From assembly GCA_963969365.1 (NCBI GenBank), contig OZ017748.1:1116001-1180000 (forward strand): a DNA stretch of 64,000 nt, given 5' to 3'. Within the stretch, counting starts at the first letter, position 1. Each line of letters opens with the position of its first letter. Position numbers and translations under genes: made by a program. The DNA comes from Asterochloris sp. CNOR1 (Eukaryota; Chlorophyta; Trebouxiophyceae; Trebouxiales; Trebouxiaceae). Shown piece by piece: positions 1-64,000 of the stretch. Below the pieces are notes generated by a model. It was given only the letters and a program-made list of their open reading frames with translations. It was not told where the DNA came from and did no database searches.

Positions 1-253
1 GCAGAGAAGCATAGAAGGGATATACTGAAGTATCTGTGGTGACTGTGGGTGGCAGCAAGCCAGCAACACATCCCTACCAGGGCCCGGTGCACTTGGCTGC
101 CTGGCATCTCTACACCACAGCCGTGAGGTTGCAGATTGCTTCAGGCTGCCAGTGGGCTGTTTGGCCTTGTTCAAGACCATCAGGCTCAGCCTGCAGCTGG
201 AGCTGGGCTCCCCTGCAACATCTGCCCAGCAGCAGTCAGCCCCAGGAGCACAC

Positions 254-1640
254 CTGAGCCATGAGCATGCGAGTCCGCTTCAGGCTGTCAGTGGCCCCCT
301 TGGCCTCGCCGACAATGTCTGCCTCAGTCTGCAGCTTGCGCTGGGCTGCACCGGCATCGGAGCCGCTCAGCAGCTCGCGTCGCTCATCGCGGTGGGCCTT
401 CTCCTGCTTGCGCTGCAGCTGCAGCAGGGCCTGATCAAAGCCCTGGCGCAGAGTCTCATAATGGCGCTTGTGCGTGGCCAGCTTGCGTGCCAGGCGCTCG
501 GTGTCCTCGTCCCTGCACGCCAGCAGCTCAGGTCAGACCAACCACTTCCCTGTGCACCTGGCAGGGGCCCTGCTGAGCTGAGGTGCGCCCTGACTCCCTG
601 CCTGGAACGCCCTTGTCCCGTCTCTGTAGCCCATGTTGCAGGACCAGTGCATGTCATAACCCTGATGATGGTGCTTGAGCATGGCCAGCTTGTGCAGCTG
701 GCACTCAGTGTAACTTCTGCCTGAACGCAAGACCGAAACTCAGCGGCTCAGGTTGGCTGAGTGCAAGAGGGGTGTGTGGCGGGTGCGCCATGTCCTCATC
801 TCTGCAGCACATGGAAGTTTGCTGGCTGTGAGTGGCTCTGGTGCCAGCCGGGCATGTTCCCCCAACCCTGCACATGACTGCACATGTGAGTTGTCCAGCC
901 GCAATTGGCTTTGATGCCAGCGACTGGCACGCTGTTGCCTCAGGCCTGCAGGCAGGTGTCTAACACATGAGATCCCTTCTCAATCCAGGACCAGTGCCGT
1001 TGACTTGTCATCAAGGGCCAGGCGCTCGGTGCTGACTTCCCTGTAGGCCAACAAAGCGTTTAGCCCAGAACATGGCGAGGCGTGGACCCCCTGCGGCGTA
1101 GCAGCTCTGGGTCCGCTTTGCAGCAGGCAAGTCAGGGGCTGAGCTGAGGAGCCATAGCTCTCCAGACAGGCATCCTGTGTCCCTGTCCTTCCAGGAGAGC
1201 AGCTGCAAGCTTGCCCTGGAAGCCTGCCTTGGCGCAGCTTGTGACAATGTGTGCCTTGCACAGGATGATGTGAGGCCCCACAGCACATGGAAGTGGCAGT
1301 CCTCAGGAGCAGCAAGGCATTGTGACTTTGGATCAATACATAGCGCATGATTGTGCAGCACAGAAGGGTGCCCCAGCACTCGTGAAGTAGCCTGGCAACA
1401 TCACCCCACTCACGTGTCCTGCTCATCTGCAAAACACTCCAGATCATACAGGGTTGCCCGCAGCCCTGCGCATGTCTCCCTGAAGGTGATGTCCAGCTCC
1501 CGCGCCTGTTCATGCTTAGCAGCAGGCAAGTTTGACAGCTTTCTGGTGATCCCTGCTGCCTGCTCCTGTTGCTGGGACAGGGTGGCATCCAGGTCCTGCT
1601 CCTCCTGGGCATTGCTGCTGGACAACTTGCCAAGCTGCAT
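254..1640 (-). CDS. SEC20: Sec20/BNIP1-type SNARE, 3' end off window
   Basis: ER-localised Qb-SNARE of the Golgi-to-ER retrograde fusion machinery (family knowledge). Two exons are supported on the minus strand: 1414-1640, starting at the ATG at 1638-1640 with MQLGKLSSSNAQEEQDLDAT, and 254-512, joined in phase 2 across a GTGAGT...CAG intron. Exon 2 encodes a heptad-rich helix with RRELLSGSDAGA and ends at KGATDSLKRTRMLMAQ followed by a GTGTGC donor. That stretch matches the conserved Sec20 SNARE core (ESLRRTRQLM-like). The transmembrane anchor expected after it is not visible in positions 1-253 and should lie outside the window. An imperfect copy of the exon-2 acceptor edge sits inside the intron at about 1009-1046. 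The call rests on the SNARE-core resemblance; intron-exon structure left of 254 is unknown. Confidence 0.72.
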
Positions 1641-1821
1641 GCTGGCGGAAAAAGCCTGATGTCAGATAAGAAGTATACGCGTCAGTGGCAAAGGCGTCAG
1701 TAAGGCTGCATTAGGTCAGCCTGGCTGTGGCGGGGAATTCTACCTTGCTCCGCCTGACGCAGCGCTTTCTCGATCTGACACCTGGTCAGCTCTGCTAATA
1801 ATCTGCTACAGATCTGCTGTT
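1641..1821. promoter_or_regulatory. Shared intergenic region, Sec20 / MCMBP
   Basis: The start codons of the Sec20 gene (minus) and the MCM-binding protein gene (plus) face away from each other across only 181 bp, so both promoters and 5' UTRs must lie here or overlap. I see no certain TATA box. ETG1/MCMBP genes are E2F targets in plants; a TTTCTCGATC stretch near 1770 is not a convincing E2F site. Inference from layout only. Confidence 0.45.
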
Positions 1822-4800
1822 ATGGCACCTGCCCAGCCAATGATCAATCAAATCATTCGGCAGCCTCTGGAGACAATACACAGCATCCTGCAGCACCAGC
1901 AGGAGGGGAGCACAGGCGCCAATGTGTCCAGGGCATTCAAGGACTTGCTGATGAGCCCGGGTGCCTGGGACCAGGTGGGACCCATCTGCCAGCTTCCTCT
2001 GGGACTACTCGAGAGTAAGCTTACATGGATCCTGCAGGTGCCGCTGCTGACCGCTGACAATGTGCAGAGCTTGCCCGGCAGTTCCCTTGTGCGTTACTTT
2101 GGCATGGTGAGCAGGAGTCAGGGATGCAGTGCCCCAGGAATGGGCACAGCAGTCTGCCACCCAGGCAGCCACTACGTTGGCCTACCCTGCTGTGTTCCAT
2201 GGGTAGTAAGGCACCCCTTTGCCATGCCTGGTGCAGGTTCGAGACCAGCTGGACCCAGAATACTTTGTGGCTGCCCACCAGTGCACAATTGGCAGCTGGG
2301 CTGTCTGCAGTTATGCAGACAGCCTCCAGGCCTTTGATGGGACGCTGCAACACCGGATAGGCGAGCGCCGGCCTGTGATCTGTGGACCAGTCGCAGAGCA
2401 GTCAGCTTGGGTGGCTGAGCTGGAAGGTGACCCAACAGCTGTCCAGCTGACTGCAGCAGGTTCTGTTTTCATTCACATTATTGTTTCACGTTTTGAGTGT
2501 TGCCGTGGTGCTGACATTGCAGCCTGTCCTGGTGTAGGTCTGCAGAGCAGCCCACCCCTGTCTTGCTGCGTGTTGGTGAGCCCCGCCTGTAGGGTCTGCC
2601 AATGTTGCTGGATTCTGTGCACCAGCACTGCCTCAGCAGCAGCCAGACTGCTCCCAATATTGCCATTACCTCCTTCTGCATCCTCAACATCTTACATCTT
2701 CTTTCAAGCTCTTGCTAATAGCCTGCGACTTGATGGTCAAATCCTGAATTACATGTCAGCACTACCAACACTGCTGGCAGCTCTCAAGTGCATGTGCAAC
2801 ACCCAAATCTTGCCATTGCTGCTTGAGGCAGCATCCCAGCTTAGTGTGGCAAGTGTGCAGCCCCTGCCAGCCCTGTTGGCATTGGCATTTGGCTTTGCTG
2901 ACCTAAGCCCAATCTGCAGGCCTATGCCGATGAGGATAGCCTACCTCTCAACAGTGTGGTGGAGGTGGTTGGGGTGCTAAGCAATGGCAGCCCTGAACAG
3001 TGTTCTGTGGAGGAACGTCTGTCTGGCCTCAGCATCCAGGGCAGTGCCGAAGAGATAGTGAGTAAACATGGCAGCACTCCAGGCACGCTTCTGTGCGTTA
3101 CAAGCCACCAGCTGTACACGACTTGTGCCTGGTTGGGCTCACCATCCAGGGCAGTGCTGTGAGTGAAGGGTCAGTATTACCAGCAACATGTGAGGCCCTT
3201 TGTGCTCTTGCAGGTGCCGCGCATTCACGCGGTCCTGGTGCAGCCATGCCACACTTTTCTGGCAAGCAGACAGGTGCTGCCGTTCAAGTCGGACGAGCAA
3301 CTGCAGCTGCGAGCGGGGGAGCTGCGTCTGCAGGCCATCAAACTTCTGGCTGTCGCCCTGGGCGATGACATGCTGGCAGCTGAGTACCTCCTGCTCCAGC
3401 TGGTGTCCAGGTCAGGCAGCAATGGATCTTGTGCTCGTCATTACACTTGGCAAGTGCAAATTTGAGGAGCCACACTGTGACCTAGCATGGTCTGCACTGG
3501 CAAAACACAGTAGGTATCCGCAGGCTGCATGGTCGTATGTATATCCAGCAGTGGCAAGCAGGTGTGATGTGAGCTGCCAACATTGCCACTTGCAGGCTTA
3601 GCTGGAATTGCAGAGTCCCCATTCCTAAGTCTGTTCCTCACTGTCCGCCTGCTGGGGCATGCATGCTCTTGCTGATCTTTGCCACAAGGCTCCACAAGGC
3701 AAGGCTAGACCTGAGTTGTTGGGCCAGCCGCATTACCAGATTACTATCTTTTCCTCAGACCAGCCAGCTATGACAATGGCCCATCAAGGCCAATCTCTGA
3801 AATCTACCTGCCACCTGCTGGCAAACAAGTCTCGAACAACATGCCAGGCTGCAGCATCTACAAGAGCAGTAAGGAGGGCCCAGTGAGGGCAGGATGGTGC
3901 TGAATCTGAGTAGGAGCCCCTACCCAGGTAGAGGCAGCGGCTATGCCAGTGTGGCCACAGAAGCCCCACAAAACAGCCCCACAACCCAGTCCAGATTGTG
4001 CTGCAGCGTGTACAAGCGCAGTGAGGATGGTCCCATGGGCACGCTGTTGCTGAACCTTAGCAACTGCCCCATCCCCAGTCCAGGCGGCAGCGCAGACGGC
4101 ATGTCGAAGTTTGGCGCAGCTGTGCAGGCTGCTGTGGCAGCTGTGATGCCCCGCTCTCTGGGGGTGGCCATGTGTATTGAGCAGGTGTGAAGCCTGGCCG
4201 GCGTCAGCAAGTTGTGCAGCACAGTGAGTGATGGGCCTTGTAGCCCACTGCCAGAGACTGCCGGCACTTTCTTGCGGTCATCTCTGCTTGGCTGCTCAAC
4301 GTTGTCACTAATAGGGTGGCTACAGTGCGGCTGAGTGTCGGCCTTAAGGTAACTCTCTGCACAACCTGCGACGGCAGTGCGCGAGTACGGGACCAGATGT
4401 TACTGAGATGGCTTGTGCCTCACTGAACATGGCCCTGGTGCCTGCAGCTCAACCTGCGACCGCTGTGTCCAAGCAAGGATCCAGAGACCGGGAGGCTGCG
4501 CACAGCTACGCTGCAGGTGGCAGAAGGGACACAGGTCATTCTGGATGAGACCTGCATGCGGGAGGGGCAGCTCAACGGCACTGGCATCACCAACCTGCAG
4601 GCAAGCTGTGCTGGCAGGGTGGCATCCACTGGCTGAGCCTGCTTCCAGCACACACTGGTTTCTCTCAGCACTGCAAACAGTTGCCATGACGGGTGTTCTG
4701 CCTTCAAGCCATGCATGCCTGCTGCCAGCCGCGGAACAGCTGTGTTGATTGGCCTACCCCTTCCACGCCAATCCCTGGCCCTTCTCAGCCCATGCTTAGT

Positions 4801-6547: not shown

Positions 6548-9500
6548 ATGCTGCGCAAGCTCTATCAGGGCATTGCACTCAGCTCCAGCCGCAAACTTTC
6601 TGAGGGGAACAGTACAGACCCAGACAGCAGGGCATCATCTAAGGCGCAGGTCCGCGCAGAGCAGCCACATGAAGCAGCCAAGTCAGCAGCCAAGTGTGAT
6701 GCTGACGCTCATCAAGAAGGACACAAGTCCATTGATGGGAGCAGGCCTGCCTCTCTAGATGCATTCAGGAAGTCTCTGAAGACGGGGATCAAGGTGGGCA
6801 GCAGAGCACCCTGCAATGCTGGCAGGCTCATTGATGCTAGTGCTCGAGCCCTGAAGGCAGCCATGTCCAGGCGGTCCACGCCTTCATGCCAAACCTGCGC
6901 TTGGCCTTCTGCAGGAGGCCAGCAACGACAGTGCCTACAACACTCAGGGACTCGGTGGCCCAGGGAACTCAGGTGGGTGCCGGCACTCAGTCAATTCTTC
7001 CTGACTGCAATTTGCAGCTAGTCCATATTACAGCCACCTGTCAGCTGTGCCTGGCATAGAGGCATGTCCTTGGCCTCAATGGGTGCCTCTCGATCAACCT
7101 ACCTGCTTTGCCCTCATTCGCGAGTGGTGCATGTGAGAAGGCTACATGCTTCCCTATAAAAACAACGATGCATGTCGTCAAGGTAGCTGCGTCGGCCTGC
7201 AGGTGGCTCTGGTGGCCCAAGTGGCAGTGAGTCTGGGCGACCAATCTCAGACGACAGTGCCTACACCTCGCAGGTCAGTCGACCGTGTCCTGCACTCATG
7301 CCTTGATGCCATCATGCCTTGATGCCATCTTCACCAGAGCCCTGCGGGGGTACATCAATCAGACTCCTGAAGGCTTCAGTTACTCTGTCAGAGAAAGCCT
7401 CAGACTGCCTTGAAGTGCTGTGCTGTGCATCTGTACGCGGCGCAGCCCCAGTCATGCGCTCCTGGATAGCGTGCGCAGTGATGTGCCCCCATCGAGGTGG
7501 CTTGGCCAGCATGCTGCTGGGTGCCAGGCTTCCTGTGGTGGGCAGCAACTGTCGTGAAGTGTCTGCCTGACTTGACGCCTTTGCCCCCCCTGGCAGCAGG
7601 CTAGCTTGTCACTGCTGAGCGCGGGACCGCGCATGTCACGCGGGAGCGCCGCCTTCAGCCCCCTGGCTGGGAGCGGCAGTGCACAGCCCTCAGGCTCGCG
7701 GCAGTCGCCAGCTACCACAAGCGATGGGCCTGGTACTGGGACCAGCAAGGCAGGGTCGGGGGCCCGCCCCAGCATGTCCCGGCAGCAGCCCCTGCAGTCG
7801 AGCCTGGACAGCGCACGCCATGGGGGCAGCTGGCAGTCCCTGCAGTCTGTGCGCACTGATCCCTCAGATGGGGCCGACGCCATGACCCCGCAGCGCAGTG
7901 ATCGGGAATGCATAGCAGAGGCTGCTCACCAGGCCAGCCACCTCAGCCTGGAGCCGCAGCAGCAGGCCGGGCAGGCCCAGCCCGGGGAGCCAAAGCAGGC
8001 CAAGCCTGCAGACCCTGAGCAGGATCCTGCAGCAGGCACAGGCGCTGGACCGGCAGGTGGGTGTCTTGCAATCTTTGTGGGTTCCTTGCTTGCTCAGCTG
8101 CTGCAGCCTGGATTTGTGTCATTCCGCTGCTGATGCCCAGGCAGCCACTGCCTCTGCTGCAGATGGCAAGGCACCTGATTGGGCAGATGGAGTCCCAGCT
8201 GCCCTGTCTCCTGCAAGCAGCGAAGTAACCTTGGATGAGCAACCCTGACCTCTGCCTGCAGCTGCACCCCGGCGCAGCGGGCAGGACCCTCGCACGCTCT
8301 CCCCTCACACCAGCCGCAACAGGGGTCCCAGCCAGGAGTCGGCAGGCAGTGCAGGCCCTGAGAGCAGCTCGCGCAGCCAGCGCAGCAGCTTTGCCAGAGA
8401 GCGCGCCAGCGTGGACGGGAACCGCGCGAGCCTGGAAATCTTTCAGGCCATGGCCCCTGTGCCCGCGCAGGTTGAGGCTGTGCCCGTCAGCTATGAGGAC
8501 ATGGAGGTCATGTGTGACCAGCTGGGCATCCCAAAGGCCATGCGTGACAGGTGCGTGACAGCCACAGCTCTGTTTGCGAGCATCTTGGGCGCCGGGCGGG
8601 TCCGTGCAACCAATCGGGCGTCCCCCAGGCCATGTGCGACAGGTGCATGCCAGCTGCAGCCCTGTGTGAGAGCGTTCCTGTGACAAGGAGGATGTGCGTG
8701 ATCAGCTGGACATGACCCATGCCATGTGCGGCACCCCTTTTGGTGAGCTTCTTCATGCCTCTGCCTTGTGGTGCTGGCGCATGAAGTTGCCGAGTAGCTT
8801 GTCCACACTGCCGGGCTCTGTCACTTGCCCTGCTGCATGGTCAGGCCTGTGGAATGGGCCAGCTGGCGAGCAGTCAAACATGCAGATCCCAATTCATCAC
8901 CTAGATGTGGTGAGTTCAGCCGCCAAAGTCTGCCTGCTGCTTACCCTAGTGAGCCATGATGTGCTCAGACAGTGGAGTCCTGCCCAGCTGTGGTGCCAGA
9001 ATGCGGTCTGGTTGTGCTCGTCAGCTGTACTTTGTTTGGGTTGTGATGGCTGTCAGCCCTGATGATCTGCTTGACTTGACTTGCAGTTAGTGACAAGCAG
9101 GCTTTGACAGGTGAGGTCTATGTCAAGAGTCGCTTGCACAGCCTCATCAGCATGAGCTGGACAGGCATTGCTAACTGCTCCTTCTGGCAACATGCACAAT
9201 GCTGGACTCTCACCACCTGGATGCCAGCTGCTGGTCATGGAGCTACTTGGCCTCCACAAAGCAGTACGTCTGCCCCATACAGCTTGCCCGCCTGTTTGGG
9301 GCCTGCTGGCCTTTTCAGCTGCCAATATCATCCAGCAAAACTCTGCTGGGCAAAAGCAGCAAGCTTGGGCCGCTCAAAAACAGCCCCTCCTTGATGTTAG
9401 GTCTGTACATCTGCAGGTATCTCAAGCTGGCAGTAGTGCCCGACAACACCCCCCTTCCCATGACCATGCTGGTCAAGCTGTGGCGCGTATCTGGGGAACA

Positions 9501-12500
9501 GGATGCAGAGGCCACTGCTAACCTGATGGAGCAGGGCGGGATTATGCGGGTCGCCTGCCTCTATGATGGCAGTGCCTGGGCTCTGGTGGACAGCGGACAC
9601 CTCAAGCACCTACAGGTGGGCTGGTCGTGTGCGTCGATGTTTGAGGAGTGAGGCCGGGTGATGATCAGCAAGATGCAGCTTTGACAGCCGCAGATGGGCT
9701 CATCTGGCAGAATTGTAGTTCCTGAACGCTGGGCCCAGACCAGGGCTGCGTGGGGCAGCGGGTACCTTATGTCCATGAAGTTGGGCTGGTTGGCTGCAAT
9801 GCTGTTATAAGCAATGCAAAGCGCTTGAAGATTGGGACTTTGTGCTGGACAGCGGCATCTGGAGGTATGCCTGTCTCCACGGATTGTTGCAAGCCTGCAT
9901 GTCTTCCTGCAGCATCTGGGGCCTTCGTCGAGAGCACCTCAAGCACCTGTGGGTGACCTGGAGGGCGCTGTCTGTCTGGTGCTTGCAGGTTTCGAGTGTG
10001 CCATGGTGGTGCTCCATGCTGGAAGCCTGCATCTCTCTTCCTATATAATGGGTGGGCCCTGCCTCAAGCAGGGCTACCCTGACAGGTGACCACAGCTCTC
10101 ACCTCCTCTTCACTGCTGCAGGGGGCTTCGTGGTCCAGCATCCCCGATGTTCATGCTGACCTGCTGGACGATTACATGGAGGGCTTTGAGCAGCTGGCCG
10201 ATGTGCCGGATGATGGGTACATCATGCAGAATGCTGGGCACCACCTGGTGGGCGCCAAGCGCCTGTGGGACCTGAAGAAGCTGATCAGCAGCCCCACCTG
10301 GCTGGAGACCAAGTTGCATTCGTACGGCGTGGCCAGCGTGGTTGCTGACTTCCGCAGGTGGGTGCCACCAGCCTCAAGCTGGCCCTTGATCTGCTGCCAT
10401 GGCAGGACTTGTAAAGGGTTGCTTGGCAATCCTGCCTGATTGAAGCAAAAGCTGCACTTCTTGTGTGACCATGCAGCGAACAGCCACTGCAAATGTGGGT
10501 GTGGGTGATTTGCAAACATGGCATATCGATTGTAGCATTTTGCTTTCATGTAAAGGGGCTCCACCATATGGGGTTCCTAATTTTGCAGCAGTCTGCAAGC
10601 AGCACATGCTACACCCTTTTGCGCTGCCCTCATTGGGTGATATGATCACCATCTCAGCACGTATGCATGCGTGCCTGTGCAGGTTCCTGATGGTGCGCAC
10701 AGACGAGGAGGTGAAGCTGCTCCTGGAGGCGCTGCAGATGAGCGTCAGCAGCTGCATGCAGATGCCCGACGTGGCTATGCTGCGCAGCCAGATGCTGGCT
10801 CGCCTCATGACTGTGCCCCGCCTTCAGGTGGGTTTCCCAGAAAGCCTCTATGGAAAGATGGTTTAGTGCATCACCAAGGTGTGTGGCACCACTGCTACTT
10901 GCCTGAAAGGCAAAGTTGGGTGACTTGTGCTCCTTTGCTGACTGGGCATCTGCGTGCATTGCAAGGGCTGCAGCCCTGCTCCCAGAATCCTGTGGCTGCT
11001 GGGTGACCTCTAGCTCTGTATCTGAGACTGCATGCGTGGCGAAACTGGTCTGCGTCAGCCGGCCTTACCTGCTCTTGTGCTCGCTGCTGCAGCTCAGGTC
11101 TCGCCAGCCTCCAGACCTACTGTCTGCACCTGTATGTGCACAGCTGGTCCTTACAGCAGTGAAGCTTGTGCAGCAGGGCTGGTCAAGGAAAGTTGCCAGA
11201 GCTGCGTTGCTGCTGGCCTATGATGCTGCAAAGCAGGTAGGGGCCCCTTTTGAGCTGATGTCTCCGAGCGTGGTGCAGGAGTGGTGCATGACGCAGCTGG
11301 AGCTTGCACGGCAGCAGGCGCCTGGCCCAGAGTCAGTGTGCTGCCTGCTACCACGCAGCCCATCCCTGGAGCAGGCGGGGGGCTTGCACCGAATGGTGCT
11401 GCGGGGGCACACCGGCGGGATCATGAAGGTCCTGCTGACCTCTGGGGGCATTGATGTCATCACTGGTGAGGGCGCTGAAGCACAGCAGAGGGCTTGTACC
11501 GGGGAGAATTTGCTTGGCAGGCGCTGAAGCACATCAGAGGCCTTGTACCTGGAAATTTTTTGCTCGACAGGCAGGGCAATTTGCATTTCAGGCATTGATG
11601 TCACCCCATTAGGGTCTGAGGCAGAGCAGAGTGTCTGCAGTGGAGGCAAAGGTCATATCTAGCGAAGCTGAAAGCAGCACATCGCTGTGGGCAGGGAGCT
11701 CATCACACCTTAAGCTCTCTGCCAAGGACTAGCCTGGTTGGGCCTGCGCTCATACCCTGCGCAGCATGATCCACCTGCGTTGTCTTCGTGTCGGCCTGTG
11801 CTTCAAGGACACAGCAGACTAGCCGTCAGGGACGCCTCCAGAAGCCAACATTTGCTCTTCTTGGCCGCACTGTGCCCCCGAGTATGCCTGGCTGTAGCCT
11901 CAACAGAAAGACAGCCTGCGTCTGCGACGTGGGGCTTGGCGCCAATGTCCTCATGCACTCAAGACGCCCATTCCTGTCGTTCCCTGCTGCAGCCTCAACT
12001 GACGGCACAGCCCGTGTCTGGGACATGGAGATTGGGGACTGTGTGCTGATGCTGGAGGGGCACCAGGGGCCTGTGACAGACCTGGCCGCCTCATCAGACA
12101 GCAGCATCCTAGTGACAGCTTCAGCTGATCAGACTGCCCGCGTGTGGAGTCTGGAGAAGGGGCAGTGCACAGCTGTGCTGGCTGGGCACACAGGCATGCT
12201 GCACGGTGTGGCCGTGGACCCACATGGCCGCTTTGCTGTCACGGCGTCGGCAGATGGGACTGCCCGGGTGTGGGACCTGGGCAGTGGGCAGTGCGCCCAC
12301 GTCTTGGCCGGACACAGCAACAGCGCTACTGGCACAGGTGCACTGGGAACGGCAATCCATCTGCGGATTGCAATGTCATAACCTGAGCTGGCTGGTGCTG
12401 GTGGGGCGCAGCCACAGCATCACTGCCATCTTCACAACAATGCCTCCTCAGCATCAAGGTGCTAGGCGCAGATAAGTGCCATGCCAGGTGGCTGGGGCAG

Positions 12501-15500
12501 AAGGCTCTGACTGGTCAGCAGGTGCTGAACGGGGCACTTCAATCCTGCCAGCTGCGGAACTATATCCAATGCTGTGCTCTCTGTGCGGGGCAGTGTCAGT
12601 CCTCCGTAGGCAGTGCGTGCAATGTGGCACTATCAGGCAGGCAGGCTATCAAAGCCGTTCCGGACAGGACTGCTGTATTCACCCATGCTGGCTTCTGCTG
12701 CAGGCGTGGTCTGGGCCGTGGCGCTGACCCCTGATGGCAGGCAGGCTCTCACAGCCTCGGAGGACTTCACGGCGCGCGTGTGGGACATCATGTCTGGCAC
12801 CTGCGAGAGAGTGCTGGAGGGGCACACCGGCTGGGTGGTGGGGGTGGCAATCAGCCCAGATGGCAGTCATGCTGTGACAGCATCACATGACGGCACTGCC
12901 AGGTGACTAGCCCTGGGTAGCCTGTGCCTGTCTTGGGTTCACTGCACAAGTCGGCTTCCCCTGCATCCACCTCTTTTGCGAAACCCACCCTGGGTAGCAC
13001 AGCCAAAGTGCTGCTGGCAAGCCCTGCTTTGTGGTCAATCCTGCAACCAGACTCTGCTGCCCTGTGCATGCATTGCCCTGAAACTGCCACCGCTGAGTGC
13101 ACTTCACAGGTTCACTGAGTCACCTTCTGTGCCCTGCAGGACGTGGCACCTTGCCACAGGGCAGTGCACGCAGCTGCTGCAGGGGCATGCTGGCCGCCTC
13201 AACGCTGTCAAGCTGTCAGGCAGTGGCACCACCGCCATCACAGGTAAGGGCCTCTCTGTGGCCATGCCTTGGTCTGCGACTCGTCAATTGAGTGCGCTGG
13301 GCAATCACCTGCCAATGCTTGAGAGGCAGTCTGATACCATCCTCCCACGTCAGCTTACACGGCAGTTGACCCTCAGCTGGCTGCTTTGCTCATCTAGGGG
13401 GCTTCCCCTGGCAATGCTGGCCTGTGCTGCATGGCAACTCATGCCACACAGTAGGTCCACAGCTTGGCCTGTCATGCTGGCCACTGTGACACGCTGACAT
13501 CTCTCCTGTGCTACCTGGTGCAGTCTCAGACGATTACACTGCACGTGTCTGGGACTGGGCAAGCGGCAAGTGCCGCCACATTCTAGAGGGGCATGGTGGC
13601 TGGCTTAGCGATGTGGCTCTGGTACACAATGGCAGTCGCGCTGTGACTGTGTCAGGGGACGATCTGGCGGTGGTGTGGGACTTGCAGGTGAAAGGTCACC
13701 CCTGTTTAGAACGCACTGCTGGTGTGCTGTGTGGCATCTCTCACTGAATGCGGGTGGGCTGCCTCTGAAAGGGGCCATCCCGACCCTGGCCAGCGGTAGG
13801 GAGGAGCCCAAGCTGAGACGTGCTGCCCATCCATGCTGAGGTGTCTTCCCCACCCATATGTGGCCAGCACCACTGCCAAGCAAAGGGCTGGCTGATCTCT
13901 GGATGGCTGTCTGCAGGCTGGTGCCTGCATAAACGTCCTGGATGGACACAGCGGGGAGGTCAGTGCTGTTGTTCTCACGCGACGTGGCAGGTAAGCCAAA
14001 GGCTGCAGTTTCCATCCCTGCTTGTCCCTCACTGCAGCCCTTCCAGCAGCCTGAATTGCAGATGCTGGCTGTCCACCAATATGGAGCGCTAGCCTGCTCT
14101 GCGGGCTGCCAGGTGCTGGGTTGCGGGGTGCGTCCTTGGCTCTTGAGCCTCCACCCCGCTCAGATGCAGGGCCTTTCTTTCCATAACCGCCTTCTGGCAG
14201 ACTTTGCTTGTCATCCTGACATGGCCTGATGCCAGAGCTGCTGTGAGAAAAACTCCATACTGACAAGACCGGCAGCCGGTTGCTCTCGCGGCCTGCATGA
14301 GCTGTCCGTCATCACCATGAACAGCCCACACTGTCACCCAGTCAGGCCAAGCTTTGCCCTGCAGGTTTGCAGTGACAGGGTCCCAAGACTCGACTGCCCG
14401 TGTGTGGGACCTGGCGGCAGGGCCCAGCAAGCTCGAACAGGGGCACAATGGGCGTGTGCACACCGTCTCAGTCAGCCCTGACGGCCGCACTGCAGCTTCC
14501 ATTGGGGACGACGCCAAGGCCCTGGTCTGGGACTGCTCCACTGGAAAGTGTGTGCACACGCTGCAGGTGAGTCATGCCCCTTCTTGAGCATGCATTTCCT
14601 GTGTAAAAGAACCCGGACAGAGCCTGGCCTGGGCTAGTTCCTGGGCAGGTGCAGCACCTTCTCACCTCTTAGTTGTGATCCAGGCAGTCAGCTCGCACTG
14701 TGCATTCCTCAATGAGGTGTATGAAGTGCCTGCAAGGCAGTCCAGCCCCACAGCTGACTCCATTGTCAGGGTAGCTAAATCCATCCCGTCTGCACGGGAG
14801 CAGGTGCAAGGCAGTCCAGCTCCACGTACCACTCCATTGTCAGGGTGGCTGAATTCTTCCCGTCTGCATGAGAGCGGGTGCTGACTGCGTTTGTGCCGGC
14901 TGCATGGACCAACTCTGGCCTGAGGTGCCACAGCACCTGCAGCACGTGCTCATGGAAAGGCCATGTGCCGCTTGCACTGCCTTCCCGCTGGGCCTCCTCT
15001 GCCAAGAGGCGTGCAGCATGTTGGCATGTGGTTGCACAACCTCTGATGCCCCACAGTGCCTGTGCTACCTGCCTGCAGGGCCAGGCCTCTGGTCTGAGGC
15101 AATGCAGCTTACCTCGCCTGCAGAGCAGCACACATCGTGAAAAAGGACACTGTCAGATACTACATGTGCTGCGTGTCTGCAGGGCCACGCCTCTGGCCTG
15201 AGATGGTGTGAGATTGTCGACGAGGGGCGCAGAATCGTGACCGTCAGTGGCAACCGCATGATCAATGTGTGGGACCTCAAGACCGGGGAGTGCGTTCAGA
15301 CATTCCCAAGTGAGACCCTTGCCTGCCTGCAACCTGGCACAAGCATGAGCCGGTAGGGGGTGCTTGGAGCAGCTGGCCTGCTGTACATGCAGTGGGCCAC
15401 GCTCAGACCTGTTCAGGGGACAGCCTGCACTGCCGCCTGCCATGTCTGCCTGGGCACACTCATGAACCAGCAAGGGGCACCTGAAGCGTCTGCCTGCCTG

Positions 15501-47293: not shown

Positions 47294-47452
47294 AAGCAGA
47301 TTGTTGTTTGTCATTTGCTGGCTTGGGAGGACTGACATCTTTGAGCTTCCTTATATGTGTTGACCAGGCCCTGTGACAGCACCTGAGCCCCTGCCAGTGG
47401 CTCAAGTGGAAGGGGAGCCATGAAAGAGCTCTAAATGAGGCATCAAAGCACT

Positions 47453-47593
47453 GACACGACGGACACACAGGACACAAGGAGATCACCCCAGCATACTCAG
47501 CTGCTCATGAGTTTGCTCCAGGCACCCAGGCAGTTTGCATGCTTGCCAGCAGCTACAGCTTTGGCAGGCTGTGTCCTTTGTGTCTGTGTGTCT
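47453..47593. repeat. Inverted-repeat element, copy 2
   Basis: Same arms and interior as the 45954 copy (GGACACACAGGACACAAGGA; TGTGTCCTTTGTGTCTGTGT). About 60 bp of upstream flank, AGCCATGAAAGAGCTCTAAA, is shared with copy 3. Confidence 0.7.
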
Positions 47594-47829
47594 CATTGAG
47601 ATGTGGAGATGGCTTGGGAGGTTGGCATAAGGTTTTCACCAAGAAGATATGGTGCGTCAGGTGCATGCACTTTGGAGGTTTTGTGGAAAAGGCCAGAGAA
47701 AGCATTGGTAGGCCACCTGACCAGAATGGATGCCTAGAACCAGGTATAATTGCATACAATCAAGCACCCACCAGTGGGGTGAAGGCAAAGGGAGCCATGA
47801 AAGAGCTCTAAATGGGGCATCAGTGCACC

Positions 47830-47971
47830 GACACAAGGGACACACAGGACACAACGAAATCACCCTTGCATCCTCAGCAAGCTACTGAGTCTGCACCAGG
47901 CACCCAAGCAGACTGCATGTTTGCCAGCAGCTGCAGCCCTGGAAGGCTGTGTCCTCTGTGTCTGTGTGTCT
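47830..47971. repeat. Inverted-repeat element, copy 3
   Basis: Arms GACACAAGGGACACACAGGA and TGTCCTCTGTGTCTGTGTGT enclose the same interior as the other copies. Confidence 0.7.
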
Positions 47972-48130
47972 CTCTGAGGTATGGCTTGGGAGGACTGACA
48001 TAGCAAACCAGATGACATCATGTGGTGTAAGCAGAAGCCACACACACAAACTGACCACGCATGATGGCAGCACCTGAGCCCCTGCCAGTGGCTCAAGTGG
48101 AAGGAGCGTCATGAAAGCGCTCTAAAACAG

Positions 48131-48254
48131 GACACCATGAGTTCACCCCAGCGTACCCAGCAAGCTCATGAATCTGCTCCAGGCACCTGGGCAGACTGCA
48201 TGCTGGCCAACAGCTGCAGCCCTGGAAGGCTGTGTCCTCTGTGTCTGTGTGTCT
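48131..48254. repeat. Inverted-repeat element, copy 4, left arm decayed
   Basis: The interior and right arm (CTGTGTCCTCTGTGTCTGTG) match the other copies. The left arm is reduced to GGACACCATGAGTTCACCCC. The upstream flank CCTGAGCCCCTGCCAGTGGC is shared with copy 2. Confidence 0.65.
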
Positions 48255-48298
48255 CAATGAGGCATGGAGATGGATTGGGAGGTGGCACATGGATGGCC

Positions 48299-48655
48299 TC
48301 ATGCCAATCTGAGAGGGGGAGGACTGGCCAAAGCCACCTGGCGTTGCCCATTGCACCAGGGCATCACTGCTGCAGCATGTGATGATGAAAAGTAGTATGT
48401 TGCCTTCCTGACCTTTGAGCATCTTGCTGGTTTTCCCAGTGACAGTGTTGTGTTGTAGCTGGAAAGGTACCTGCTTTTGATGAGCCTTCTTAAAGCCCCA
48501 CAGGCCCTGATCAGGGCATTGGCCTTGAGGCTGCCACTCAAAATCACTTCAAGCTGATATTTAGGCCTAGACATTGTTATTTTTTGCTGAGTGCCACTCG
48601 GTCCACTCTCCAAGATGCTTGCCAGGGGTGATGTGACGCTAGGTGTGTAGACCAA
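48299..48655 (-). other. Unassigned 118-codon minus-strand ORF
   Basis: Open frame with an internal ATG followed by MSRPKYQLEVILSGSLKANA and a basic stretch (LRRLIKSRYLSSYN). No family is recognised. It ends just left of the recombinase gene on the same strand and overlaps the right copy of the diverged direct repeat. It could be a relic or chance. Confidence 0.25.
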
Positions 48656-48764
48656 GAGAGCAGGCCTCCAGGGGCTTGCCCTGGCGGGAGGTATGCGTGT
48701 CTGTAGAATGAATCCGCACTTTCTGAATGATGATCAGAACCTCTCAGAACATGACTTTCAGCAG
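48646..48764. repeat. Diverged direct repeat, right copy
   Basis: Counterpart of 44512-44643: TGTAGACCAAGAG, GGCTTGCCC, CACTTTCTGA and GACTTTCAGCAG occur in the same order. It lies 75 bp past the recombinase stop codon. Confidence 0.5.
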
Positions 48765-48838
48765 AAAAGAGTGACCTGTTCATGTAAATGGCGATAGGCA
48801 ATGTCAATCGAAGAGTCAGCTCACAATGAAAGACTTGC

Positions 48839-51800
48839 TCAGCCGCTCTGCTTACGCTTGCCAAGCAGTTTGTAATCACTGTTGTACCTGCTGCATAGCT
48901 GCTGCAATGAGCTGACTGTCCTGGTGGCAGGGATGCGTTCACGTTCCAGTTCTAAAGCCCCAACCACGGCTGCCATGGTGCTTCCTAAGGCAGCCATCCG
49001 GTTTCTGACCTCAGCAGCAAGGCCGTTCTTGAATCTTGAGAAGGCCTTGCTGCTGGCCCTTGCTTCTTTCTTGCTGCCATGCCACCTGCGGAGGTCTGAA
49101 GGCACCGCTGAGATCTTGGCAAACGCCTCGAATGCTGCTGGGACTGTTTGAAAATCTGAGAGCCGCCAGACCTGCACTTCACAAGGGGAAGGGTCTGACC
49201 ATTACGCAGTTGCTCAAGCTGAAAGGCAACTGACTGCACACCTGCTTCTCGGCCAGAAAGGAGTCCCTCTCATCCGGGGCGTTCAGCACACTGAGGGACT
49301 GAGGCGGCAGAGCAATGCCATAGCTGGTCTGTGAAGCCAGTGGCACACGTGGGATGGGTTTGGCTGCTGCCGGGGACTGAAGGCCAGATAGAGGCACCTG
49401 AGGCAGCATCACCACTGGGGCAAAAGGCATTGGCGTGGCCTCCTTTCCACCCAGCGTCTTGAAGAAGAAAGCCTGCGACATGGAAGGGCAAAGGTTCAGA
49501 GCATGCATGTTCAACTACAACACCTAGGGGGCTGCAGCGCTCACCGTTGGGTTGGTAAACAACAAATTCCTGTCGTTGAGAACTGCCTCAGCAGCAATGT
49601 GTTTGTCCCACGTCTCCTGCCGCAGCTGCTTGCCTGCAGTGCTCTGCAGAAGGCGACTGGCGGCTGGCGGGATGGTGCGGAGCCACTGGTCCCCATATGA
49701 GTCAATCCTCAAGCTGGCATTCTGCACAAACACTTGCCGCAGGTGGGCGATAGCCCTCAAGGGCGCCAGCAAAGGATGTGCAGGGTGGGATCGCATGCCA
49801 GCTTGGCGCAGGAGCACTGTCAAGCCTGGGATGATGCGGTCCAGCACATCCTCCTCAGCCTGCACAACACAAGTGAAAAAGTCCCCCCCTTCCCCAATCT
49901 TGGTGATCTGCGTGAGAAGCATTGGCACTGCAATGACCTTACCTCAAAATCAGCCTGGCCCAAACGATGATTCTCGTGCCAGTCCCGTCCCCAACCAGCC
50001 AGCCTGTGGGCTGTGTCCGGGTCAAAAATGCAGTACAGGTCTGTGGTGTCAGACTCATGCCTGCAAGGCACAGAACAGGTCAGCTGGGGACAACTCTGTT
50101 CAGAATGCACAGCATGGTCAGAGTTGCCCACCTTGCCGCCATCTTGATCTCCGCTTTGTTGATGCCCACGCTCTTAGCTGCCTCCACACCATGCTTCTTG
50201 AACTTGTGGCTGACTTCGCCTTTGGCGGAGTAACCATCAAGCCTGCCACAGGGCACGCCTGCAGTGTAGCAAGCCACGATTTTCATCGACAGCCGTGTCC
50301 AAAAGCTGCAGCATTGACGCACTGGCTCACCAGCAAGTTCAAACGCCTGCCGAAGGTGAACGTTGAGGGTCTCTCCAGTCGTGGGCTGGTTCCCCTGCAT
50401 GCTAGGGGCGGCAACAATGAACTTGGCCAGATCCTCAAGTTTGATGCCCTGGTGGAAGGTGGCGACAGCCAGGTCGGCCAGCGCTGCCTGAGGACAGATG
50501 CGATGGTCTCGGTACCTGTGGCAGAAGAGGCATTGTGATACAATACACACTGCAGCACACCGCCCAACTGCGTCTGACAGCAAGAATGCGCATACCTCAC
50601 GACACCAGGAATATCCACTTGCCCAGGCTTCACAGTCTTCCCCTGCATGCTGCCAAAGAGAATTGCCACAGAGGGCGCTGGGCCCACACTGTCCTGCGTC
50701 CGCAGTGCCAGGCAGCTCCAGGGAAGCTTGCGCAGGTCATCAGAGCGGCCTAATGTGGCTGGCATGAACGTCATTGCCATCCTCAGCAGAAAGGCCCACT
50801 GCCACTGCTTCTGCTGGAATGCTGCCTGCAGGGACTGGCGAAGCTGCCCTGCGCTCAGTGCGGCATCCACCTGCAGATTTAAGCAACAAGCTGGTGTCAG
50901 ACACGCCACCACTCTGTTTGCACAAGACGCTCTGACCAGGTCGTTACCCACCTGAGCTGCCACTTGCACATTGAGGTTCTCAGCCTGCATCTCCCTGCCA
51001 CGTGCACGGACCAAGTCCCTAACTGCCTGGATCTCCAGGGGTGCAGGTACATCTGAGGTGATGCGGCCCTGTGCGTACTGCTCTCTGCGGACTTCCTTGA
51101 GGTGGCATAGATAATCACTGCATGCACCAGGCCAAAGTTGGGGAGGGCAGGATATGAGCGCAGCTCAGACACAGCTGTGGAGTGGCCTCTCACCCCACGC
51201 TGCTGAACGAGTAGCGAGCCCCATTATGCTGCACTGCCTCATCCACAAGCCACACCGAGAACTCAAGAATCTTGGCCTGAGACATGAGGTCGCCATCAGG
51301 GTACCGGTGCGCCTCCTGCTCACAGTATCTCTGCAGGACCACATGTGTGTCAGTGACATGGCCTTGAAAGCCTCAAGGACGCCATAAGAACAGGTGTAAA
51401 GGCCATGCGGTGCCTACCTTCCAGAGCTTGGCAGCAGACTTTTCAGCCTGGACTGTGTTCTGTGGCTTAGCCGCAGCATGACACGCATTGATCCCCTGGG
51501 TGATGCATAGGATTCGAGCTTTCTCCTCAGGCGTGTTAGGCATGGCTGCTGCCAAGCCAACTGCTGTTTCTGAGACTGGTGCTCCATTCTGCTGGCCCCA
51601 AGTCTCTAAACTGTGCACACCAGCCGGCACTGGCTGGAGATCATCCACCAGTTCAGACAGGTGTCTGCAGGCTTGGTCAATGGCTGCTCTGAGGGAATGT
51701 GGGCTGTTTGGGCAGCAGCTGGCATGCAGTTGTGCTATGTAGTCCTCAGCCAGCCCCAGGCTGATGACATGGTTGATGTAGCTGCTGTACTCAGCAGATG

Positions 51801-51870
51801 GCACCTGGTAGTGCTGCATGAAGGGGTGGGTCGATCTGGTTTGGCGCGCTAGGGTTATTTGACCTAGCAA
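48839..51870 (-). CDS. Crypton-like tyrosine recombinase
   Basis: Crypton elements move with a tyrosine recombinase (YR) and no reverse transcriptase. Nine phase-consistent exons: 51870-51418, 51330-51194, 51117-50952, 50870-50596, 50515-50132, 50060-49943, 49859-49545, 49472-49242, 49171-48839; about 803 aa with no internal stop. The YR core is seen as TLGRSDDLRKLPWSCLAL (candidate catalytic Arg near residue 294), GSMQGKTVKPGQV (Lys), YRDHRICPQAALADL (the rhrdp..Cp..ala pattern of Cryptons), EVSHKFKKHGVEAAKSVGI (His near 447) and TTDLYCIFDPDTAHRLAGW (Tyr near 481). In the H-x-x-R motif the Arg is Lys. The last exon (VWRLSDFQTVPAAFEAFAKI, DLRRWHG) resembles a GCR1_C-type DNA-binding end. It may be a live element or a domesticated copy. 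The start could be an internal ATG (MQHYQVPSAEY). It is head-to-head with the REase-kinase gene. Confidence 0.75.
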
Positions 51871-52093
51871 TTAGCCAGAATCCTGCTGACCTTGCAGTAA
51901 AGACCGCTTGGCAGCCAGAGGCAGGCTGGCCACACAGCAGCCGGGAAGAGCCTCAAGCCACCTGCCACCGCCGCGAGCAGTGACCAGCTGACTGCCTGCC
52001 TGCCTGTGCATCACAGGTAGGTGTCGGACCGCAGCAGCGAGGACATGTCGCTGCTGGCTGAAGCCAACAGTTCAGGGAGCTTGTACCCACCAT
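51871..52093. promoter_or_regulatory. Shared region between recombinase and REase-kinase genes
   Basis: Only 223 bp separate the two divergent start codons, so the promoters are probably shared or overlapping. No motif is recognised with confidence. Confidence 0.35.
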
Positions 52094-55052
52094 ATGGCTT
52101 CAACTCTGCAGATGGCTGGTTGTTCAGAACCTGCGACTGAGATCGCCATGGACCTGGAGAAGGTCAAACAGGACATTGAGGATGCAAGGCAGGCGCTGAA
52201 GGTCAGCAAGGATGCTGAGGAGCAGCGTGAGCTGCGCAAGTACTTGACTGCGCTGCTGGAGAAGGAGGCCCGTCTGGAAGGCACCGCAGCAGGTGAGCTG
52301 GCCGCTTGCTGGTAGAAGATGTGGTAAAGGCCTGGGCAGCATACATGGCTAAGGAAGATCCAGTCAAATCAACAAAGCTCGAGAAAAGATGGAACGAGGC
52401 AAAGGTGGAGCTAAACATCTTCCAAAGGCAACAGGTGGCTGGAGGTGAGGGTCCCAAGCAGGCTGCAAGCTGCGACCTGCATGGCGTGCGGCAGCAGGTG
52501 TGCCTTGCGGGAGGCGCTGTCCAGGGCCTTGCCACCAGGTCCTCAAGCCTGCTGGTGGAGTCTTTCTTTGGCTGGACGCTGAGCGCTACGCAGAGGGAGT
52601 GGGACTCACCTGTTTGTCCACACAATACTTTGGGGGGCAGCCTTCCCAACCCTTTCTTTAGTTGGGAAGGCTGCAGGAGAAGCAGCATGCTTTGTTGAAT
52701 GCATTGGGTGGCCATTGGGGTAAAAGCAACAAGGTGCTCGCATTCCACTTTGTGCTCTGCCTGACGCTCTGGCTGTCATGCCATATGGAGGTCCTGCCAC
52801 GCAAGTTGTTTGCTCCACACTGGGCTACAGGCTGCTTGATTTAGACTGTAAGCTGCTAACAGAGGTCAGTGGATGCTGAATTTTTGCCTTGCGGGTGCAG
52901 AGGGTGTTGAGCACCCTGAAGTCTGTCGTACCCAAAATTGTGGCTGCTTCATCACGTACAAGCACCTTGAGCAGTGCAGTGAGCTCGGCAGCCTGTTATG
53001 CAGGCAAGCGGAGGCATGAGGCTGGCGGTGAGAGCGACAGTGGACCTGGCCCCTCTAAGAGGGCCCGCCGAGGTGTGTGTGAATGCCTTGTTGTATAACC
53101 TCAAGCATCTGGCCTGACATGCAGCTTAGAAGTGCCAGGGCAAAGTTGATTCGCGAATAGCTTCAGCAAGGAGTATGCTGCTGTTGCAGATGAGTCTGAG
53201 AAGTGGGCAAAACAGCTGGCCGCCCCACAGCTGCCAGAGTTGCCCACCACACCCCAGGCGCTGCAGGCAGTGCTGTTCCCCCAAAACAGCCCTCTGCTGA
53301 TCCCAGTCACACCAGAATGCTATGAGGCCATTGCAAGCCAGCACCCCAGCACCGCAGATGAGTGCTTGATGGTCGCGGATGGCTCAGACTTGCCAGCTAC
53401 CTTGGGCAGCCTCTTGCGTGATCCATTTAGCGGCCAGGCATCTAGCGAGGCCACTGTCAGCGTAGTTATAGGTGGTGCTATCCGTACCATATTGCTTCGA
53501 ATGAGCAAGTTCAGCTGCATTGACCCCAAGGACTTGAAAGTCCTGTTCAATGAGACAGAGAAGCAAAAAAGCACCACTAGCAAGGCTGTGCTCGTGCGTG
53601 CCCGCCCTGACACGCTTGTGACAGTAGCTGGTTGCACCTTGTTGATTGGCGAGGACAAACAGCTGAGCCTGCTAGATGCTATCAAGGACCTGAAGGCAAA
53701 GCGCCAGCCAATCACCGCCATGCACTATGGCCCCGTGAACTTCTTGCTGGCATACGCTGCAGGGGACGCAGCATTTCAGTGGCAGTGGATGTCAGCAGAT
53801 GGCACACAGGTTCGTTTGAAGGGTATGCTACTGCATAATTGCTTCTCTGCTGACAGTCTCGACGCCTTTATGTGACTTGTCTGCCAGCAGCTTTGGCCAT
53901 GTCTTTTGTGCCCAATGTTGCTGTGCATTGCCTGCAGCTTGTGCCCATTGGAATGGCTCTAGATGTCAGTGATGTTCAGCATCGCTGCATCTTCGTCCAG
54001 TCCCTCATTCGAGCTTTTTTTCTACTGCTCAAGATGGGCCGGTCAGTGCCAAGGCTGCATGGCCGACTACCCCTGGGTGTGCAGGTTGACAGGGGTGACA
54101 ACAGGTATGTTCCACTGTTGAGCCTGCATGATGCAAGCAGTATTCATCAGATTGCATTTGATAGTTGATGAATGCCACATCTCTTGGACAAGAGATTGTG
54201 TGCATGTGCTGTGTCCAATCCTGGTGTTTTGCCTGTCTATTCCTGAGGCATGCACATGATTTGCTCTGCCAGGTACCTGATTGTGAAGGGCAACGGTGTC
54301 CTGAAGGTCATCCCCAAGTTCAAGGCGTTTTCCAAGAGGATGAACACCAGCCTGAAAGCCATCAAGCGTGCTTATGGGGCCGCAAACACTACAGACAACC
54401 TGGCAGACCCCTGTCTGATTGTGGCCCAGGAAGGACCAGAGATGCACAACGCCACCTACAAGGTGCTGGCTGGGCCACTTGGCTACAGCCCTACCTTTGA
54501 GGACGACCAGGTGAGCCCAAGCACAGCTTTGGGACTCAGTCTGCCAGTGTTGGCACAAAGCATTGGTTTGCCGGCAATGTGACAGTGTTTTGCAGCATTG
54601 CATCATAGCAGCTACCCATTTGTGACCTTATGCCTTGCTGTCTTCCTTTGTTGCAGGATGTGCAAGCGCTCGCCATCTGCTGCTGCAAGGCCGCGTCGCT
54701 TCTGCACCAGGCTGGTGTTGTCCACCGGGACATTCGCCTTGACAATGTAGCCCAGCTTGGCAAGCATCGCTACATGCTATTAGACCTGGAGACCGTTGCT
54801 GCAGCAAATGCACGTGCACTGCCTGCTACCTTCATTCCCTTCACAGGCTGGGGCAACAGCGTTCTTGATTCTCACAAGCGGTTCACTACTATGTCTGACA
54901 TGCATCTGATTGGTGCGCTCCTGGAAGAAGTCTTCAGCGCCAGCGGCATTGCAAGTGCTGCAGCATCTCGAGCTTTTATTGACAAACTGAAGCGCAAGCT
55001 TTTGAGCGCGACTGCAGCTCTAAATGACCCCTGGCTTGCTCAATCTGTGTAA
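52094..55052 (+). CDS. Crinkler-like (CR) protein: REase domain fused to a protein kinase
   Basis: Crinkler/CR proteins pair a nuclease-like domain with a kinase and are known as effectors in oomycetes and chytrids, and from free-living algae. Supported exons: 52094-52292, 52316-52435 (tentative), 52901-53072, 53190-53809, 53938-54104, 54273-54510, 54657-55052 (TAA). The N-terminus is coiled coil (DLEKVKQDIEDARQALKVSK). The 53190 exon holds a PD-(D/E)xK-like core: RPD (53603-53611), then LIGEDK with E-D-K at 53651-53659. The kinase half has HRD (54723-54731), Asn (54744-54746) and DLE (54783-54785) where DFG is usual. Joining the first two exons needs a 23-bp intron or a frameshift, so the 5' end may be damaged. 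No signal peptide is seen. Whether it acts inside this cell, in element control or in defence is unknown. A fragment copy lies at 44797. Confidence 0.7.
52637..52674. repeat. Perfect 14-bp inverted repeat
   Basis: GCAGCCTTCCCAAC (52637-52650) and GTTGGGAAGGCTGC (52661-52674) are exact complements around a 10-nt loop, in the presumed intron between the N-terminal and REase exons of the CR gene. Confidence 0.75.
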
Positions 55053-55690: not shown

Positions 55691-55705
55691 GTTCAGCTCT
55701 AGTTG

Positions 55706-55812
55706 CAGGGTGTCACATGGCCTGTGATAATACGACAGGTCGCAGGGTGTTACATGGCCTGTGATAACATGACAAGTCACAGGGTGTGACATGGCCTGTG
55801 ATATTATGACCT
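55706..55812. repeat. 37-bp tandem repeat, three copies
   Basis: Units starting CAGGGTGT(C/T/G)ACATGGC begin at 55706, 55743 and 55780 and end in a GA(T/C)AA-ATGAC-like stretch; the third is slightly degenerate. It directly follows the recombinase relic. Confidence 0.85.
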
Positions 55813-62900: not shown

Positions 62901-63703
62901 TTCCCTGCAGGAAGCAGCCCACCCTACTTCTGCCGCTACCTAGGCCTGCCTGCCAGGCAGCAGCCCAACAAGGCAGCAGCCCACAAGGCAGCAGCCCAAC
63001 AAGGCAGCAGCCCAACAATGCAGCAGCCCAACTTACCCTGCCTGAGGCATGTTTACAGCCACCTGCAACTGGTGCACGCGCTGCGCTCAGTGATGGCCAC
63101 CTGCGCTGCGTGCCATGTCAACAGCTTGCAAGGGGCACCCCCTGACTCAGCACCTACACGCTGGGTAACATGCTGGGCCGGGTGGATCCCCGGGAATGGG
63201 CATGGGAACCACAAGTTCCAGTGCAGGGGCTCACCATGAGCCCCTCGGCCAGGGAGCGACCCAGCGGAGGGGTGCCTGCCACTGGACCTGGCGCATGAGG
63301 AGCTTGGAGTAGCGCAAGTGAAAGCTTGAAGGGAGCTGTGCGCCCCCAGAGCCAGGCAGGAGCCCACAGCAGCACTGCCACTATGCCTCACCAGGAACTG
63401 GCGCATGCGGCACTTGTGATATCATGAAATTGCCTGTACCACAGTCAGGCAACTCATAGGGGCACAAACGTTGCATTGTGATGCTTCGCCGCCATGACTC
63501 ACCAGGAACTGGCGCATGCGGCGCTTGTTGATGACCACTTGGCTTGCATGCTCATAGCTGCCCTCATCCTTGGTGTCTCGCAGCCACTTGTAGTCTGCCG
63601 TGACCTTCACAGAGCCCACCACCTTGTCGGAGTTGTGGAGGTCTGTCAGCTGCCACTGGTGATCATGGTTGCCCTGCGCAATCTCTGTGATGGGCACAAT
63701 CGC
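56954..63703 (-). CDS. LNS2/lipin-type HAD-domain protein, 5' end off window
   Basis: LNS2 domains are HAD-fold phosphatidate-sensing or phosphatidate-phosphatase domains found in lipins and PITPNM proteins. Sixteen phase-consistent exons, 5' to 3': 63703-63503, 62642-62546, 62232-61994, 61620-61557, 61429-61107, 60781-60658, 60369-60215, 59987-59841, 59612-59545, 59263-59091, 58815-58718, 58551-58447, 58136-57956, 57796-57719, 57514-57228, 57001-56954; about 795 aa in the window. The N-terminal part is C2-like (DHQWQLTDLHNSDKVVGSVK), then a linker with a coiled coil (SPEVAALKEQLLALMLAMSE). The LNS2 core has CIVFDMDGTITVGDQE (complete DxDGT), AAKGYQPIYLSGRQGSYYN, LLYAAYGNTPTDIRAYLAAG and IFIVGPHGGKSDTVKVVNF. 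The donor at 57956 (GTGGGT) bypasses an apparent TAG at 57909 and adds an acidic tail of about 137 aa of unknown function. The intact DxDGT suggests possible catalysis; substrate unproven. Confidence 0.82.
62955..63032. repeat. 16-bp tandem repeat, about five copies
   Basis: Repeats of GGCAGCAGCCCAACAA, some one base shorter, in the first visible intron of the LNS2 gene. Confidence 0.85.
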
Positions 63704-64000
63704 CTGCAGGCAGGGCCAGGTAGAGACGGGATCGCAGTCACACCCAGCCAGAGTGCGGCACAGCCATGATGTCCTGACCAAGCGGTGGCAGCACTGCCCC
63801 AGGGGTGACTCAGTAGCACCAGGTGCTGTACCCCTGCTGGCTGTGCACCCACGAGGATGTGCAAGTGGCGCCATCTGCCTGATCTGCTGCCTGCAGGGCT
63901 GTCACTAGCAACAGCGCGCAGCTGTAACAAGCCAAAGGCAGGCTGCGCCCACCTGGCCACAGTAAGGAGGCTTCCCGGGCAATCACTTGAGCTTGTGTCG

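Follow-up and report, generated by a model that had tools for sequence, protein, structure and literature searches.

Degraded copies of exon edges in introns of Asterochloris sp. CNOR1 as probable remnants of short head-to-tail duplications

The window, defined here as the whole stretch of 64,000 nucleotides under analysis (contig C3 of Asterochloris sp. CNOR1, positions 1116001-1180000), has a GC content of 0.54-0.60 along its length and holds several protein-coding genes. Pfam domains were identified in five of the eight protein pieces searched (MCM_bind, WD40, GNAT/IDM1, LNS2 and Maf), and the other three gave no domain match. One gene model could be aligned to the human PRPF6 protein (3jcr_G; E value 2.8e-242). 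Of the gene names proposed in the first-pass annotation, MCMBP, WD40, GNAT and LNS2 are thus upheld by Pfam and PRPF6 by the PDB alignment, but the stretch assigned to CFAP99 has no Pfam match. The introns of these genes contain degraded copies of the adjoining exon edge, referred to below as echoes.

The window was analyzed together with 200 kb of contig C1 and 50 kb of contig C10, giving a sample of 314 kb from a genome of 56,383,464 bases in 21 contigs. Gene models were predicted from the DNA alone by a gene finder that was self-trained on these 314 kb, and the PRPF6 model was checked residue by residue. The trained consensus was CAG|GTGAG for donors and CTGCAG|G for acceptors. Genes with a coding score below 40 and introns longer than 2000 nt were left out of the counts, and 245 of 713 exons were not counted as robust (shorter than 60 nt or with a weak coding score). 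A dropped mini-exon is present in 95 of 414 introns. After removal of 31 introns shorter than 120 nt, 383 introns entered the test of exon edges described below.

Several further features lie in the window. Two tandem arrays are located at 62955-63032 (16-base unit, 4.9 copies, 95% matches) and 55701-55810 (37-base unit, 3.0 copies, 86% matches). A family of dispersed direct repeats occupies 45832-48287, with at least four copies of up to 268 bases that are 75-88% identical and spaced 0.3-2.2 kb apart; it is perhaps a transposon remnant and is the source of two of the best-scoring close pairs. The predicted genes at 44788-45296, which has no Pfam match, and 53190-53809 encode about 130 residues in almost identical form, starting (C/L)IPVTPECYEAIASQHPSTADECLMV. 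A predicted minus-strand gene at 46730-52011 comprises sixteen exons encoding 738 aa without a Pfam match; its product may resemble a tyrosine recombinase.

On the plus strand, echoes were located as follows. An MCMBP exon end recurs at 3134-3157 (source 3024-3047, spacing 110) and an MCMBP acceptor edge at 3848-3910 (source 4000-4060, spacing 152). A copy of 8524-8581 with a donor-like CAGGTGCG motif lies at 8616-8673 (spacing 92); both donors are candidates, and the gene finder extended the exon into this echo, to 8642. A weak echo of the exon end at 9615 was found at 9935-9961 (source 9598-9624), and the WD40 gene carries an acceptor-edge echo at 11891-11956 (source 11986-12052, spacing 95). 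The donor-edge echo at 14831-14881 belongs to a 74-base head-to-tail duplication (source 14757-14807) within the tandem array 14731-14881, and an acceptor-edge echo follows at 15064-15098 (source 15168-15202, spacing 104). The donor edge of a GNAT gene exon recurs at 30736-30795 (source 30622-30681, spacing 114), with a second copy at 30900-30933.

On the minus strand, acceptor-edge echoes were found at 18496-18551 (source 18292-18346, spacing 205) and 21607-21674 (source 21488-21554, spacing 120), and an exon start near an acceptor is repeated at 24312-24332 (source 24205-24225, spacing 107). Donor edges recur as a short echo at 19009-19025 (source 19098-19114, 16 of 17 positions identical), at 19685-19744 (source 19826-19887, 57/62 identical, offset about 142) and, for the exon 63503-63703, at 63377-63417 (source 63488-63528, spacing 111). 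A long echo, either an acceptor-to-exon stretch or an array, occupies 21126-21279 (source 21315-21457, offset 189, 110/154 identical). Within PRPF6, an acceptor with the following exon start is copied to 36239-36285 (source 36034-36080, spacing 205), with further echoes at 36419-36446 and 36484-36510. The acceptor edge of the PRPF6 exon 39072-39233 recurs at 39325-39356 (source 39211-39242, spacing 114), and the donor edge of the exon 39963-40370 at 39810-39859 (source 39951-40000, spacing 141). Two mini-exons called by the gene finder, 36238-36267 (30 nt) and 39330-39347 (18 nt, held by the echo 39325-39356), are insertions relative to human PRPF6, and both lie on echoes.

The first-pass annotation had listed twelve places in which introns hold degraded copies of the adjoining exon edge, and this observation proved sound. 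For each place, the best local match within 600 bases was compared with 300 dinucleotide shuffles, and all twelve have a same-strand copy, eleven of them beating all 300 shuffles and the place 18996-19041 beating 299. The best direct matches score 29-91 and the best inverted matches 16-26; the weakest places are 9928-9962 and 18996-19041, with a score of 29 each. Every source overlaps a predicted exon, and ten of the twelve cross a predicted exon end. Of the other two, the source of the echo at 3136-3170 was placed at 3028-3047 and ends 10 bases before the exon does, and at 8610-8740 the predicted exon itself runs into the echo.

In a systematic test, each edge, taken as 60 exonic and 15 intronic nucleotides, was the query against the body of its own intron, with a cut-off score of at least 30. 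Among the 383 introns, the donor edge matches in 28 and the acceptor edge in 36. Reverse-complemented edges gave 2 donor and 0 acceptor matches, edges of other genes gave means of 0.2 and 0.6 in 10 repeats, and exon stretches situated 60-135 nt from the junction matched their own intron in 4 of 249 and 3 of 255 cases. At least one echo is present in 58 of the 383 introns, about one in seven (window 17/69, C1 31/246, C10 10/68). The proposal of a genome-wide phenomenon therefore holds as far as the sample reaches, with echoes on all three contigs in the 314 kb. One to four copies per junction had been reported; at a score of at least 28, one copy was found in 49, two in 10 and three in 5 of 64 cases, so that the maximum of four was not reached.

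An annotation-free self-comparison (at least 33 bits, distance up to 600 bases) identified 85 direct and no inverted close pairs in the 314 kb (24 in the window, 40 in C1 and 21 in C10), which confirms that copies keep their orientation and lie near their source. At a strict cut-off, the direct pairs less than 1 kb apart numbered 18 in the window, 27 in C1 and 13 in C10, and no inverted pair was found; at a laxer one (E up to 10), five inverted pairs do occur in the window, with lengths of 16 to 21 bases and distances of no more than 3 kb. An equal rate of similarity in shuffled sequence had been named beforehand as the outcome that would speak against the echoes. It was not seen: five shuffles of each segment yielded neither direct nor inverted pairs at the strict cut-off. 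As a negative control, 50 kb of E. coli gave no pairs of either kind. Chance or shared motif composition, including codon usage, might be considered in view of the strength of both CTGCAG and CAGGTGAG in this genome. However, the edges of other genes share these motifs and yet match in 0.2-0.6 rather than 28-36 introns, and the palindromic CTGCAG left not one inverted pair. Because own edges match so much more often than foreign or reverse-complemented ones, shared composition is excluded as the cause of the echoes, and the likelihood left to this account is practically nil.

The same control bears on introners, which were considered as a source and rejected. In agreement with the earlier statement that the echoes are not transposed introners, each echo matches its own exon edge. 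In addition, 701 bases of one echo-bearing intron match only themselves genome-wide, with common words skipped in the search. Another possibility is that duplications created the introns themselves, by gain of the Rogers/Hellsten type, so that echoes would mark young introns. Such cases are known, for example in potato, where a duplication across an exon-intron boundary gave rise to an intron (PMC4974935). The expected signature, in which the upstream exon end equals the intron end or the intron start equals the downstream exon start, is absent from all 414 introns at a score of at least 28 and present in one of them at a score of at least 24 (control 0.2), and the spacing equals the intron length in none of the 64 matches. 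An origin of these introns by duplication is thus exceedingly improbable.

The copies carry splice motifs into the introns and decay there. Among 21 donor echoes, 16 still have their GT, and 24 of the 31 acceptor echoes still have their AG, which bears out the view that echoes leave look-alike splice sites. Selection against such decoy motifs was considered and not seen, as the kept fractions in chosen alignments (GT 0.90, AG 0.90) are no lower than that of nearby exon bases (0.82). Mismatch between echo and exon amounts to 0.151, 0.151 and 0.217 at the three codon positions. Since it is even over the first and second positions and moderately higher at the third, the echo is unconstrained and not coding, and the exon copy adds third-position changes of its own; there is accordingly no sign of coding cassette exons under constraint. 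CpG sites were changed in 34 of 116 cases compared to 76 of 648 for other C or G, which is 2.5 times as often. The echoes decay by ordinary mutation, like free DNA. Mutagenic copying of a reverse-transcription-like or RIP-like kind was rejected on the basis of roughly symmetric base changes, 113 transitions versus 93 transversions, and the faster CpG decay. This faster decay in the free copies (echoes L002-L026) hints at CpG methylation in the genome.

Introns with an echo have a median length of 428, compared to 309 without. The suggested role in intron growth is compatible with these lengths, but a long intron also has more space in which an echo can lie. As a crude figure, summed echo spacing corresponds to 5.6% of the intron bases tested.

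The proposal of a process special to splice junctions was not sustained. Such a junction-aimed mechanism, for instance breakage that accompanies splicing or arises from RNA-DNA hybrids at the ends of exons, would preferentially duplicate exon edges, and at a score of at least 38 edges do match in 28 of 504 cases compared to 4 of 504 for exon interiors. This contrast is expected in any case, because any contiguous exon-to-intron duplication must contain the edge. The 85 close direct pairs comprise 52 exon-intron, 23 intron-intron, 6 exon-exon, 3 intergenic and 1 intron-intergenic pair, while random placement predicts 34% exon-intron, 43% intron-intron, 17% exon-exon and 4% intergenic pairs. A junction is spanned in 47 of the 85 pairs, versus 30% by random placement, which again favors aimed copying, but wholly intronic and wholly intergenic pairs exist as well. 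Furthermore, in simulations that placed tandem duplications at random on this annotation and kept the exon copy under constraint, 0.71-0.80 of exon-intron pairs span a junction (observed 40 of 52), and the ratio of exon-intron to intron-intron pairs already reaches 1.26-1.57. Most of the exon-edge excess is consequently ascribed to constraint. The observed ratio of 2.26 (52:23) leaves a small unexplained remainder, a weak excess with a one-sided p of 0.01-0.09 depending on settings, and a mechanism directed at junctions is improbable. The deficit of exon-exon pairs fits a purging of duplications inside exons.

The spacing of the 64 edge matches has quartiles of 97, 116 and 158 bases and is divisible by three in 15 (p 0.11). 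Pair distances lie mostly at 50-300 bases, with a steep fall beyond 200-400. None of the close direct pairs in the 314 kb (at least 33 bits) has a spacing below 50 bases, even though the score of a 40-base unit with 80% identity should be high enough for detection; the missing short spacings may reflect a lower size limit near 60.

The first-pass annotation had interpreted the echoes as tandem duplications spanning junctions. A junction is spanned in 52 of the 64 edge matches and head-to-tail arrangement is clear in the best-scoring pairs, but most older pairs cannot show it. The match covers a median of 0.40 of the spacing in exon-intron pairs and 0.48 in intron-intron pairs. In the score-bin comparison, from which exon-exon pairs were left out, the six pairs of at least 90 bits reach a median coverage of 1.16 (simulated tandem 0.94-1.00, simulated spaced copies 0.62), and pairs of 55-90 bits reach 0.63 (tandem 0.39-0.90, spaced 0.41). 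Median coverage in the bins below the best is 0.32-0.63, within the range of decayed tandem simulations; matched for score, it is bracketed by the tandem simulations that used small indels and those that used large ones.

A residual test, which asks for the intronic half of the expected unit, disagrees with the coverage test. This half is traceable in 15 of 60 matches, compared to 66-71% in tandem simulations with small indels, 48-49% with large indels and 24-29% in spaced-copy simulations. Traceability rises with score, from 0.12 (30-40) through 0.33 (40-60) to 0.67 (at least 60; n = 6). The observed value thus equals that expected if break repair in the intron copied a nearby piece of 20-80 bases and left unrelated spacer between, with filler DNA arising by synthesis-dependent strand annealing or end joining. 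The well-preserved pair 19826-19887 and 19685-19744, like other pairs, consists of a short match and a long spacer; in this pair the next 80 intron bases show no residual match. Human proximal repair-mediated duplications likewise include splice sites among the copied sequences (PMC2671141). The best-scoring pairs, however, cover the whole spacing, and none of the 85 pairs is inverted, whereas at least one copied exon in the human set is (PMC2671141). Spaced copying is hence rather unlikely as the general origin, although it is the most serious of the alternatives. Our reading is that the duplications were tandem and have been obscured by age and large indels, and that patch copying may have contributed a share.

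Old copies predominate in the age profile. A score of 90 bits is attained by just 6 of 77 pairs, compared to 38-55% in constant-rate tandem simulations and 19-55% across constant-rate simulations in general; therefore, either the rate of duplication has varied or the explanation lacks a component. Identity of at least 90% was found in 6 of 39 matches with at least 25 aligned exonic bases.

Taken together, the echoes probably originate from short head-to-tail duplications of which one copy decays in the intron. In this model, stretches of mostly 75-200 bases would be duplicated throughout the non-coding genome. A duplication within an exon would break the protein and be lost, whereas one across a single splice junction would leave one intact exon edge, provided that the outer site stays in use. 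The other copy would become intron, keep its splice motif for a time and decay by ordinary mutation. As selection would hold the exon copy, exon-intron pairs might be recognizable about twice as long as wholly intronic ones, and for this reason exon edges would seem to be preferentially copied. The mutational step might start from a pair of neighboring nicks or from a staggered break and proceed by fill-in and end joining, as reported for rice and mouse cells. The sequence itself shows the copies, their orientation, spacing and decay pattern and the retained GT or AG; we infer this step as well as neutrality and the use of the outer site. The findings are best explained by small duplications being harmless wherever one good splice site remained, so that introns lengthen and gather look-alike splice sites. 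A stronger version, in which junction-crossing micro-duplication was a main intron-lengthening route of the lineage, in a past and now slowed wave of 75-200 base units that remodeled many of the introns and left intact decoys genome-wide, some of them maybe cassette exons, with a mild true preference for edges through splicing-linked breakage, is doubtful.

Exon-edge echoes are a real and repeatable feature with an ordinary cause. They constitute a measurable record of intron lengthening without transposons, and because the exon copy is constrained and its partner is free, small duplications can be dated and counted within one genome. If young copies are truly scarce, this would imply a change in the duplication rate. 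Echoes also reveal the origin of decoy splice sites and false exons: in PRPF6, two echoes misled our home-made gene finder, and annotation of such species can therefore be checked against them.

In the open-licence literature, we found no earlier paper that treats exon-edge echoes as a class occurring across a genome. The echo-forming duplications are nevertheless a known kind of event. In rice, tandem duplications are reported as the commonest insertions, enriched among mutations of 50-200 bp and purged faster from exons, and short ones are attributed to patch repair (PMC7971508, citing Vaughn and Bennetzen 2014). The echoes resemble them in direct orientation, in the 50-200 bp class and in being fewer in exons than introns, but they are diverged fossils, seen mainly at exon edges and with few young members, unlike the young near-perfect polymorphisms of rice (PMC7971508). 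For mouse and human cells, fill-in of staggered breaks by Pol alpha-primase with CST, followed by end joining, has been described (PMC8355091). Introners likewise supply intron sequence in many genes, but an introner is one element copied to many genes and an echo matches its own exon edge only (for introners, PMC9860276). The human proximal duplications are similarly close, short, inherited and able to copy splice sites; they differ in a median of 147 bp, in distances of about 1.2 kb (with detection bias noted, pairs within 50 bp having been removed) and in the possibility of inversion (PMC2671141). In the potato RdRp gene, as in the echoes, the duplicated unit crosses one splice junction and includes the splice signals; there, the tandem duplication across the exon-intron boundary made a new intron, whereas the echoes lengthen an existing one (PMC4974935).
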